Shown here one piece after another: positions 16,598-24,785 of a DNA stretch of 36,035 nt. The notes beneath the pieces were generated by a model. The model was given only the letters and a program-made list of their open reading frames with translations, was not told the origin of the DNA and ran no database searches. Location: NCBI RefSeq assembly GCF_026013615.1, contig NZ_JAPDPI010000051.1, forward strand, positions 1 to 36,035, read 5' to 3'. The position numbers and the translations under genes were made by a program. The stretch is from Plebeiibacterium marinum (lineage in GTDB: Bacteria; Bacteroidota; Bacteroidia; Bacteroidales; Marinilabiliaceae). Position 1 is the first letter of the stretch; the number at the start of each line of letters is the position of its first letter.

Positions 16598-18010
16598 ATG
16601 GCTGTGTATAAATGTTTAGCTTGTGGAAATGAATATGATGAGGAAAAAGAAGGTGTGAAATGGCAGGATTTGCCTGGTGATTGGATTTGCCCCGTGTGCG
16701 GTGTCGCAAAAGATATGTTTGAAAGTATTGGTGATCAGGATGAGGCTCAAAACAGTGCTGAAGACATAGATCATGTTGATAAAGGTGATTATCTGTCGAA
16801 ATGGAAAAAGTCAGGTGATGATAATGAGCAATATTTTAATGACATTCATACTATTGCAGAAACAGGCAAATCGATTGCTGAACCAATGAAAACAAAAATG
16901 CCATTGGTTTCGTGGAACGATATTCTTTTTAAAGGAGCCCAGTTGTCAAAGCTTCCTATTAATACGGAGGTGGAAGTCAACACAAAAACTGTTATAGGGC
17001 CAAGGGCAAAACATCCTTTGGTAATTGAAATACCTATTTATATCAGCCATATGTCGTTTGGGGCACTTTCAAAAGAAATTAAGGTTGCCCTGGCTAAAGG
17101 GAGTGCTGCTGTAAAAACTTTGATTTGCTCAGGCGAAGGTGGGATATTACCTGAAGAGTTTGAAAATGCTTACAAATACATCTATGAATACATTCCAAAT
17201 AAATATAGCTTGACCGATGAGAATTTAAGGAAAGTTGATGCGGTAGAAATTAAAATAGGACAAAGTGCCAAGCCGGGGATGGGAGGGCATTTGCCTGGAA
17301 GTAAGGTAACCAGGGAAATTGCTCATATTAGAGGAAAACGTGAAGGGGAGGACATTCATAGCCCTGCCTGTTATCCTGATATCAGGAACAAGGAAGAACT
17401 CAAGAGCAAAGTGGATTGGCTAAGGGAAAAAACAGGAGGAAAACCAATAGGTGTTAAAATCGCCGCGGGTAACATTGAAGAAGATTTGGACGTGGTTTTA
17501 TATGCAAATCCGGATTTTATCACCATTGATGGCAGGGGAGGAGCCACAGGGTCTGCACCGAAACATATCAAGGATCACACTTCGGTTCCAACAATATTTG
17601 CTTTGAACAGAGCCAGGAAATATTTGGACGCCAATAACATTGTTGGTGTTTCTTTAATTATTACAGGAGGCTTGCGCGTGTCATCTGATTTTGCAAAAGC
17701 TTTAGCAATGGGTGCTGATGCCGTAGCTATTGCAACCGCCGGTATGATTGCAGGAGGATGCCAGCAATACAGGGTTTGTAATACAGGTAAGTGCCCGGTA
17801 GGTATTGCAACTCAGGATAATGATTTGCGAAAAAGGTTGGATGTTGATAAGTCAGCCAAAAGGATAGAAAACTTTTTGAAGGTATCGTCTGCAGAATTAA
17901 AAGATTTTGCAAGGATAACTGGTAATGTGGATGTGCATGGTATGGATATCAAAGATGTATGTACCACGAATAGTGAAATATCTGATTACACAGATATTGA
18001 TCATGTTTGA
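16598..18010 (+). CDS. Rubredoxin fused to glutamate synthase FMN domain
   Basis: The protein has 470 residues. Residues 1-45 are a complete rubredoxin: C6 and C9 in CLACG and C31 and C34 in CPVCG, which bind one iron. After a linker of about 60 residues comes a glutamate-synthase-type FMN barrel (about 105-445) with SFGALSKE, GEGG, KPGMGGHLPG, DGRGGATG and GADAVAIAT. C388, C394 and C399 in the CQQYRVC...KCPVG segment match the 3Fe-4S ligands of glutamate synthase. There is no glutamine amidotransferase domain, so the protein cannot by itself release ammonia from glutamine; the rubredoxin probably delivers or receives electrons for the FMN/Fe-S centres. It is a single-gene unit with its own terminator. 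The true substrate is open: ammonia-dependent glutamate synthesis or another FMN redox reaction. Confidence 0.85.
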   Translation: MAVYKCLACGNEYDEEKEGVKWQDLPGDWICPVCGVAKDMFESIGDQDEAQNSAEDIDHVDKGDYLSKWKKSGDDNEQYFNDIHTIAETGKSIAEPMKTKMPLVSWNDILFKGAQLSKLPINTEVEVNTKTVIGPRAKHPLVIEIPIYISHMSFGALSKEIKVALAKGSAAVKTLICSGEGGILPEEFENAYKYIYEYIPNKYSLTDENLRKVDAVEIKIGQSAKPGMGGHLPGSKVTREIAHIRGKREGEDIHSPACYPDIRNKEELKSKVDWLREKTGGKPIGVKIAAGNIEEDLDVVLYANPDFITIDGRGGATGSAPKHIKDHTSVPTIFALNRARKYLDANNIVGVSLIITGGLRVSSDFAKALAMGADAVAIATAGMIAGGCQQYRVCNTGKCPVGIATQDNDLRKRLDVDKSAKRIENFLKVSSAELKDFARITGNVDVHGMDIKDVCTTNSEISDYTDIDHV

Positions 18011-22672: not shown

Positions 22673-23401
22673 ATGATTGAATCGACCAGGGGAATAGTTT
22701 TGACTCATACAAAATATGCCGAGTCTAGCATAATATCTCATATTTATACAGAGCACTATGGGCTACAATCCTATATGATTAATCAGGTTCGCAGCAGGAA
22801 ATCAAAAGGGAAAACTGTTTTTTTGCAACCACTAACGCTGGTAAACCTTGAAGTATACCATTCAGATAAAAAGACAATACACCGGATAAAAGATTTTAAG
22901 GTTAGCTCCCCATTTTCATTGATTCCATTTGAGCCCATTAGGCAAAGCCTTGCATTTTTCATTGCAGAAGTATTAAATAAAGCACTAAAACATGAAGATA
23001 AGCTTGGTAATGATCTGTTTGATTTTTTGTTTCATAGTATTTGTTTGATGGATGACAATATACCCGGGATACAAAACTTCCATTTGTTTTTGTTGTTTAA
23101 ACTGACGCAGCCTTTGGGATTTTATCCAAATTTTGAAGAAGAGCTGGAGAAAGTTTTTTTTGATTTAAGGAAAGGGATGTTTACTATTCATGAACCGGTT
23201 CACCCAAACTATATGAATGTTTGGCAGTCAAAGTTATTATATAAGTTAAAATCAGTGGATGTCAATCATTTGGATCAGATAGAATTGAATGGGGAGCAAA
23301 GAACCGAATTTATAGAGAAGATGCTGGATTATTATCATTTGCATCTTTCCGGTTTTTCTAATATTAAGTCTTTCAAGGTTCTGAAAGACTTGTTTAGGTA
23401 A
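22673..23401 (+). CDS. recO: DNA repair protein RecO
   Basis: The protein has 242 residues, the usual RecO size. The N-terminal OB-fold begins with the characteristic ESTRGIVLTHTKYAESS and continues through SYMINQVRSRKSKG and LQPLTLVNLEVYH; the remainder is helical (LAFFIAEVLNKAL and LFKLTQPLGFYPNFE). RecO works with RecR and RecF to load RecA on gapped DNA, and anneals single strands. No zinc-binding cysteine cluster is seen in the C-terminal half, as in other Bacteroidota RecO. It is monocistronic here and divergent from the transporter gene. Confidence 0.9.
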   Translation: MIESTRGIVLTHTKYAESSIISHIYTEHYGLQSYMINQVRSRKSKGKTVFLQPLTLVNLEVYHSDKKTIHRIKDFKVSSPFSLIPFEPIRQSLAFFIAEVLNKALKHEDKLGNDLFDFLFHSICLMDDNIPGIQNFHLFLLFKLTQPLGFYPNFEEELEKVFFDLRKGMFTIHEPVHPNYMNVWQSKLLYKLKSVDVNHLDQIELNGEQRTEFIEKMLDYYHLHLSGFSNIKSFKVLKDLFR

Positions 23402-23483: not shown

Positions 23484-23537
23484 TTTGTAAAAAAATATCC
23501 GTTTTGTAAAAAAAACTTTGTAAATTGTATTTACAAA
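23484..23537. promoter_or_regulatory. Cluster of TTTGTAAA boxes with a perfect 9-3-9 dyad
   Basis: TTTGTAAA occurs in direct orientation at 23484-23491, 23503-23510 and 23517-23524 and in inverted orientation (TTTACAAA) at 23530-23537. The last two form a perfect palindrome of 9-bp arms around a 3-bp centre (23517-23537). The arrangement looks like a multi-site operator. Confidence 0.45.
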
Positions 23538-23651: not shown

Positions 23652-24785
23652 ATGATTGTACAAAATATGGAAAAGTTATCTTCGCCTAAAGATATAGCAG
23701 CGTATGCCAGGGAAGTTGATTTAATTAATATGGCGGAAAATTTTTCAATGCAGAAAAGTGCCCCTGAATTGACAGATTTATTGCATTCTTATATTAAACC
23801 ATTTGCCAACGAATCATCACCTAAATTTGGGTTGCTTGAGCTCAGGGAAGCCATTGCCTTAAAAACAGAATCCTTATATGATTTTAAATATGCTCCGGAT
23901 ACAGAAGTAACAGTGACTAATGGAGTAAAACCATGTGTTTTTGCTATCATGCTTGCTTTGCTTAAAGAAGGGGATGAGGTAATCGTCTTTGAGCCGGCTC
24001 ATAAAAGTTATCAGGCTGCCATAAATGTAACTGGCGCTCGTGTGGTTTATGTTGAACTTGATGCGCCAGAGTTTAGTTACGACTGGGAGAAGGTACAGAA
24101 ATTTGTTACCTCTAAAACACGGATGATAATCATTAACAGCCCGCACTTTCCCACTGGAACAACCATGTCGGAACTGGATATGTTAAGACTTCAGAAAATT
24201 ATTAATGGAACTAATATTTACATATTGAGTGACGAATCTTTTGAGCATATTGTTTTTGATAAAGAAATGCACCAAAGTATTGCGTTATATCCAAAATTAA
24301 GGGAACGTAGTATTATTGTTTCTTCATTCAACGAAACTTTAGGGATTAACAATTGGCATATTGCGTATTGCCTGTCTACCGAAAAAATAATGAAGTCTAT
24401 CAGGGGTGTAATCAGTTTGTTGGGCGAAGGGGTTGGTATTCCGTATCAAAAGGCCATCGTTTCATACCTGAATAAACATAGTGATTTTGCTAAGCTGGCA
24501 GGGTTTTATCAGAAAAAGCGTGATTTATTGTTAGAAGGTCTGGATGATTCCGGGGTGTTCTTCGTGCCTTCAAAATCTTCCTATTATCAACTTATTTCCA
24601 AAGCAGGGAAAAATGATAGTACTGATGTAGATTTTGCCATGAGTCTGATCAAAGATGTAGGTATTGCCGCAGTGCCATTGAGTTACTATTACCATCAAAA
24701 AATAAAGACAAAATTTGTGCGACTTAATTTTTCATTACCGGATGAAGATCTGATTAAAGCAAATCAATTTTTAAAAGGAATATAA
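23652..24785 (+). CDS. Class I/II aminotransferase homologue lacking the PLP lysine
   Basis: The protein has 377 residues and full-length similarity to fold-type I aminotransferases of the methionine/kynurenine aminotransferase group. The pattern FGLLELREAIA, GDEVIVFEPAHKSY, NSPHFPTGT, LSDESFEHIVFD, SSFNETLGINNWHIAYC and FVRLNFSLPDEDL follows the family in order. The position of the Schiff-base lysine (SSFGKT in active enzymes) is glutamate E228 (codon GAA, 24333-24335). Other cofactor contacts have changed: F166 for the Asn in PHNPTG, F197 for the Tyr in DEVYE, H for Tyr in EPAHKSY, and GVKP for the GATE phosphate loop at 91-94. D194 and the carboxylate-binding R357 remain. The frame is open, so it looks like a preserved protein, not a decaying gene. 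It is likely a non-catalytic or repurposed member. Confidence 0.88.
   Translation: MIVQNMEKLSSPKDIAAYAREVDLINMAENFSMQKSAPELTDLLHSYIKPFANESSPKFGLLELREAIALKTESLYDFKYAPDTEVTVTNGVKPCVFAIMLALLKEGDEVIVFEPAHKSYQAAINVTGARVVYVELDAPEFSYDWEKVQKFVTSKTRMIIINSPHFPTGTTMSELDMLRLQKIINGTNIYILSDESFEHIVFDKEMHQSIALYPKLRERSIIVSSFNETLGINNWHIAYCLSTEKIMKSIRGVISLLGEGVGIPYQKAIVSYLNKHSDFAKLAGFYQKKRDLLLEGLDDSGVFFVPSKSSYYQLISKAGKNDSTDVDFAMSLIKDVGIAAVPLSYYYHQKIKTKFVRLNFSLPDEDLIKANQFLKGI

Follow-up and report, generated by a model that had tools for sequence, protein, structure and literature searches.

A lysine-less YbdL-type aminotransferase homologue downstream of recO in Plebeiibacterium marinum

The locus and the active site of its product

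The window analysed here, a stretch of 36,035 nucleotides from the Plebeiibacterium marinum contig NZ_JAPDPI010000051.1, carries a gene for a 377-aa aminotransferase homologue downstream of recO. The two genes, the gap between them and the codons considered below are as follows.

22673..23401, forward strand: recO (242 aa), the conserved upstream same-strand neighbour, from a profile match and family synteny
23513..23530, forward strand: AT-rich AAACTTTGTAAATTGTAT, between recO and the aminotransferase gene; by eye, a similar motif recurs in each of the 7 genus loci printed
23652..24785, forward strand: lysine-less YbdL-type aminotransferase homologue (377 aa), from profile, structure and model matches
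23814..23816, forward strand: Ser55, at the Tyr70* position (phosphate contact from the dimer mate), by residue-column comparison
24000..24002, forward strand: His117, at the ring-stacking Trp140/Tyr position, opposite the Y of PSYDSY
24147..24149, forward strand: Phe166, Asn194-equivalent, opposite the N of PHNP
24171..24209, forward strand: residues 174-186, candidate contact surface, from family conservation compared with lysine-bearing homologues
24231..24233, forward strand: Asp194, at the pyridine-N contact position, kept in the YbdL alignment
24240..24242, forward strand: Phe197, Tyr225-equivalent, opposite the Y of SDEVYEH
24333..24335, forward strand: Glu228 (GAA), in the PLP-lysine column, opposite the K of SSFGKT in the YbdL alignment
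24357..24359, forward strand: His236, at the phosphate-binding Arg266/Lys position, by residue-column comparison
24720..24722, forward strand: Arg357, equivalent to the substrate-carboxylate Arg386, kept in the YbdL alignment

The frame runs uninterrupted from ATG to stop, at exactly the positions where a sequence-only reading had placed an intact gene for a complete class I aminotransferase fold. That fold is borne out by every comparison made. The protein matches the Pfam profile PF00155 (Aminotran_1_2) with 140.5 bits against a cut-off of 19.7, the best match among solved structures is E. coli YbdL (1u08; HMMER, E 4e-69, residues 15-374), and its AlphaFold model (57-row alignment) has a pLDDT of 93.1, with 1u08 as the top Foldseek match (TM 0.94, 33% identity). 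It is thus a full-length YbdL-type class I aminotransferase homologue, resembling this methionine aminotransferase in length and over the whole fold (TM 0.93-0.94), while differing from it in having neither the Schiff-base lysine nor most of the PLP contacts. The nearest NCBIfam model, NF006569 'methionine aminotransferase', gives 333.6 bits, under its curated cut-off of 420, which leaves the protein outside that family. Profile searches alone would name it an 'aminotransferase', and lysine-less proteins of this kind are easily mistaken for enzymes.

For the active site we use AspAT numbering and contact roles, in which we take Lys258 to correspond to position 228 of the window protein, and the other contacts likewise. 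The Schiff-base lysine is replaced by Glu228, encoded by GAA and lying opposite the lysine of YbdL in the HMMER alignment with 1u08, just as the sequence-only reading had proposed. The contacts to the PLP phosphate, ring and O3' are also changed: S55, H117, F166, F197 and H236 replace Tyr, Tyr, Asn, Tyr and Lys, respectively. Among these, H117, F166 and F197 had already been named in that reading, whereas H236 and S55 are additions. A further feature it had listed, the motif GVKP, is not odd by itself, as the ordinary class I enzyme TM1255 also has a Lys in the K93 column ('ngakqalf'). K93, D194 and S225 are compatible with a class I site, and D194 and the carboxylate-binding R357 are retained, as had been claimed.

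How unusual these replacements are can be judged from 171 lysine-bearing homologues not tied to recO. In these, the canonical residue occurs in nearly every row: Tyr70* in 169 (Tyr at position 55), Thr109 in 167, the ring Tyr/Phe in 170, Asn194 in 167, Asp222 in 171, Tyr225 in 170, Lys/Arg266 in 169 (Lys at position 236 in 168) and Arg386 in 171.

Lysine loss and shifted constraint in the family

The window's family, which we infer to be Marinilabiliaceae-like, is represented by 71 genomes, of which 47 carry the gene at E<=1e-45 and 24 do not; it is present in 15 of 21 family genera, with no internal stop among the matches listed. Position 228 was read in 46 of the 47 carriers, the gene of G002 being split over two contigs, and is Glu in 40, Gln in three, and His, Thr and Ile in one each. 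For L079 it was taken from a partial protein, and for G032, G035, G061, G079 and G080, which lie outside the 235-row set described below, it was read separately. All seven complete copies from the window's genus have Glu. The sequence-only reading had accepted that a lysine in this column in close relatives would point to a recent point mutation. Lys occurs in 0 of the 46 family members, which rules out such a mutation, and sequencing error is ruled out by the many independent assemblies, including the near-complete G003 (4 contigs) and G072 (1 contig). Among the literature matches listed, there is no recognised description of this lysine-less family.

Column frequencies were taken from 41 family rows (the window, L040-L078 and the named L106). 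The wider set of 235 distinct homologues was obtained by dropping partial L028 and L079, identical duplicates and rows with <330 aligned residues. It draws on an order-wide search in which 149 of 393 genomes matched (all but 16 places fetched, among the matches listed) and on a scan of named genomes covering the best 80 of 550 relatives. Trees used 122 and 69 of 236 rows.

Across the family rows, E228 is found in 36 of 41, with H, T, I or Q in the other five, so the conservation that the sequence-only reading had asked about holds for this residue. For F166 it holds within the genus only, where the Asn194 column has Phe, or Tyr in one, in 7/7 rows; neither occurs there in any of the remaining 34. 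His likewise fills the ring-stacking column (117) in 7/7 genus rows. Ranked by variability within the family, this column falls in the top 28%, and the Tyr70* and Thr109 columns (55 and 93) fall in the top 6%. The Tyr225 column has Phe in 33 of 41 rows, and the Lys266 column (236) has Gln in 28 of the 34 rows outside the genus, within which it has His in six and Asn in one. The Asp222 column (194) is divided between Asp (26), Glu (14) and Ile (1). S225, H165 and R357 are nearly fixed, with Ser225 in 41/41 rows and Arg357 in 40/41, the genus member L043 having Gln. Judged from these columns, several cofactor contacts are altered together with the loss of the lysine, and the presumptive substrate-carboxylate arginine is retained.

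Purifying selection acts on the lysine-less gene in those relatives where it can be tested. Ten of 16 lysine-less pairs yielded a dN/dS value by at least one method, ranging from 0.013 to 0.106; dS exceeds 1 in six of these, and the four with dS <1 give 0.013-0.073. Lysine-bearing pairs gave 0.028-0.082 in three of five. Decay, for which the sequence-only reading had named a dN/dS near 1 as the sign, is therefore contradicted in the relatives, by these ratios and by open frames, although the window gene itself has no estimate, its nearest relative being 70% identical and synonymous sites saturated.

The constraint has also moved. Thirty-seven positions that are >=90% conserved in lysine-bearing homologues drop below 60% in the family, including 29-32, 54-58, 93, 117, 166, 227 and 236, and many of them lie in the contact-holding segments 29-34, 51-58, 93-95, 117-122, 166 and 227-236. 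Conversely, at eight positions that vary among lysine-bearing homologues, a single residue occupies >=95% of the family rows. Four of the newly fixed residues, E174, R179 and Q181 (41/41 each) and G186 (40/41), fall within 15 residues (permutation p 0.013, with thresholds set after seeing the data). In 19 other recO-linked rows, R179 occurs in none, Q181 in eight, E174 in eight and G186 in all 19, and G186 is also present in 62 of the 171 lysine-bearing rows. This is modest evidence that residues 174-186 may form a new contact surface.

The aligned sequences indicate that at least two lineages beyond the family lost the lysine separately, one to Pro and one to Val/Ile. The f72 clade has Pro at position 228 in 7/7 rows (three from f72 genomes and four from named MAGs, of which two are Prolixibacteraceae), and the f97 clade has Val or Ile in two of five. 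Four lineages away from recO also lack the lysine, each in a single row (Ile in f11, Glu in f90, Arg in f55 and f82). Parsimony places five changes of lysine state on the 122-row tree. In f97 (L089, L169, L186, L219, L227), the carboxylate Arg is replaced by Gly in 5/5 rows while Lys is still present in three, which suggests that loss of the Arg preceded that of the Lys. The three f89 rows are lysine-bearing copies beside recO with an essentially intact site.

recO and other neighbouring genes

Of the 40 family loci with upstream sequence, 39 have recO directly upstream on the same strand, compared with 22 of 41 for the next commonest neighbour family; in L048, a 93-aa ORF is called between the two genes. 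The adjacency recurs in five more family groups (f72, f82, f89, f97 and f115). The spacing, 43-622 bp with a median of 162, does not support a tight operon. Nor is a promoter reading of the AT-rich motif in the gap supported, TAnnTTTG occurring in the gap of only one of seven genus loci, and the palindrome (arms of 9) that the window's gap contains has no counterpart in the other six genus loci. In L073 (5784-6769), recO is interrupted and only its last 24 residues survive, preceded by an ORF judged transposase-like by eye; the adjoining aminotransferase homologue remains intact.

Of the 235 distinct homologues, 58 are recO-linked, 48 of them without the lysine and 10 with it, against five without (one of them L073) and 154 with it among those not recO-linked. 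The lysine-less L074, whose upstream sequence is absent, was left out of these counts, and 17 lysine-bearing rows with <900 bp upstream belong to the 171 and lie outside the 154. Striking as the raw counts are, a tree-based paired test found no association between recO adjacency and lysine loss, with only four pairs on supported branches (six in all), and we do not regard the adjacency as the cause of the loss; the counts mainly reflect a few lineages. A single origin of the recO-linked proteins was rejected as well (AU test on a quick tree, p 5.7e-53, or 4.4e-86 without f89), the tested group having been named before its tree and after the earlier 122-row tree, with long branches in play.

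The surroundings of lysine-bearing copies are of another kind. An omega-amidase-type gene lies at most two genes downstream in at least 97 of the 171 lysine-bearing, non-recO-tied homologues, and no such YafV-type gene within two genes, which would mark an omega-amidase-linked transaminase, was found beside any of the 58 recO-linked copies, many loci being short. Each neighbour family takes its name from a single representative truncated to 400 residues; the one scanned here is a carbon-nitrogen hydrolase, YafV-type. At E<=1e-40, 61 of the 71 family genomes have such an amidase gene (NF007757), which in 55 scores above the cut-off. In nine of ten fetched family loci, no aminotransferase of the YbdL-type family was detected within ~5 kb of it, and the usual transaminase-amidase pair is therefore split in the family members looked at. 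The window genome's own amidase gene is on another contig (L287, 4565-5341), with no aminotransferase within ~5 kb. The family amidase must be fed by another transaminase, or its role must have changed.

Other neighbours recur less widely. A PorZ-like type IX secretion gene, whose representative fragment scores 217 bits against a cut-off of 260, precedes recO in 13 recO-linked loci, including L241. In seven recO-linked loci, the gene after the aminotransferase homologue is GH3/OlsH-like (the representative fragment, from L218, scores 341 bits against a cut-off of 620).

Possible roles of the protein

We consider it probable, at roughly 0.6, that this is a pseudo-aminotransferase kept for a non-catalytic role in binding or regulation, similar in action to MalY. 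The sequence-only reading had likewise suggested a preserved non-catalytic protein with linked changes, and the uniform lack of the lysine, the joint change of contacts and the purifying selection in testable relatives all speak for it. So do the confidently modelled full-length fold, the shift in constraint and the lack of an omega-amidase-type neighbour beside every recO-linked copy. The YbdL/class I fold would have been kept while the lysine for the PLP internal aldimine and most cofactor contacts went, and because of these losses PLP is probably no longer held by the protein. For the same reason, a PLP sensor is the least likely of the roles proposed. The protein would act by contact with another protein, as MalY does on MalT, probably as a dimer, and perhaps through the surface of the PLP domain that includes the helix 174-186, nearly invariant in the family. 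A free amino or keto acid may serve as the switching ligand, bound in the vacated pocket with Arg357 taking the carboxylate and Glu228 the ammonium. Several observations weigh against such a role: E228 is not universal (replaced in five of 41 family rows, with Pro, Val or Ile elsewhere), which weakens a specific function for the Glu; R357 is Gln in L043; 24 of the 71 family genomes lack the gene, which is therefore dispensable; other recO-linked rows share the 174-186 pattern only in part; and MalY itself keeps PLP. A narrower version, in which a cofactor-free amino-acid sensor binds ammonium through Glu228 and carboxylate through Arg357 and the ligand switches the contact of helix 174-186 with a partner, possibly RecO, is tentative and rather doubtful. 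If it were true, lysine losses in at least three recO-linked lineages (to Glu, Pro and Val/Ile) would represent repeated recruitments for signalling.

The other explanations differ in how much of the old chemistry they keep. A new or residual enzyme, in which Glu228 would act as an acid/base group, without PLP, on a substrate (an amino acid or another compound) occupying the old pocket, draws on the constrained part of that pocket (the nearly fixed S225, H165 and R357) and on the prevalence of E228, F197 (33/41) and, outside the genus, Q236 (28/34). We nevertheless think it unlikely, given H, T, I or Q at position 228 in five rows, the variability of positions 55, 93 and 117, and the lack of linked pathway genes in the neighbourhoods read. 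ColD provides a precedent for a PLP/PMP enzyme without a lysine, and the family could by analogy hold its cofactor non-covalently, with E228 as the base in place of the Lys. The pyridine-N Asp (26/41, Glu in 14) and the invariant Ser225 would fit; the contacts for the phosphate (Tyr70* and Arg266 equivalents), for ring stacking and for O3' have disappeared or vary, and this reading is very improbable. An inactive subunit paired with a lysine-bearing aminotransferase, as LCB1 is with LCB2 in serine palmitoyltransferase, would also account for the retained fold, and passages of PMC3794620 present LCB1 as a known case. Each of the 47 carriers, however, has one YbdL-type locus at E<=1e-45 (that of G002 on two contigs) and hence no close lysine-bearing paralogue, and no other aminotransferase encoded in the window genome matches better than E 4.5e-24, which makes a heterodimer quite unlikely.

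A functional partnership with RecO in recombinational repair would explain why recO is so much more constant a neighbour than any other gene family and why the adjacency reappears in five further groups. The wide gaps, the rejection of a single recO-linked clade, the null paired test and the intact gene beside the interrupted recO of L073 count against it, leaving this partnership a little less probable than a new enzyme; as a direct partner, RecO is only a lead, the two genes being neighbours and not a tight operon. A dying gene that survives by recent ancestry would fit the relaxed positions around the old site and the family genomes without the gene. Its presence in 15 of 21 genera without internal stops among the matches listed, the low dN/dS of its relatives and, again, the copy in L073 make this hardly credible.

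The preferred pseudo-aminotransferase reading has parallels in several known systems. According to passages of PMC10427625, E. coli MalY is a PLP-fold protein that represses the regulator MalT by direct contact, a dimer acting through its PLP-binding domain; the likeness is one of working principle only, as MalY binds PLP and is an enzyme, and a MalT-like target is known for MalY only. In Saccharomyces cerevisiae, ScAlt2 is described in PMC5960717 as an inactive alanine transaminase paralogue that has retained the aminotransferase fold and lost activity, although it is a eukaryotic paralogue of an active enzyme. Closer in the feature at issue are Mycobacterium tuberculosis Rv3778c and the serine palmitoyltransferase subunit LCB1, PLP-fold proteins without the PLP lysine according to sections of PMC12910592 and PMC3794620; both belong to other subfamilies, the former being cysteine-desulfurase-related (PMC12910592) and the latter pairing with the active LCB2 (PMC3794620). 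PLP-fold pseudoenzymes have so far been known mostly as single cases. Here, one gene in one order presents a graded series, from an intact site with Lys (f89) through Lys without Arg (three of five f97 rows) to Lys replaced by Glu, Pro, Val or Ile, and the order of the steps from enzyme to non-enzyme is thereby directly testable.

Two composite reading frames were also observed. In L112 (7926-12158), a lysine-bearing homologue is in frame with a sortilin/PKD/Por_Secre_tail protein, giving 1411 aa in total, perhaps as a MAG artefact, and a single ORF of the window itself (16598-18010) combines a rubredoxin-like N-terminus (35 bits, cut-off 90) with a glutamate-synthase-like domain.
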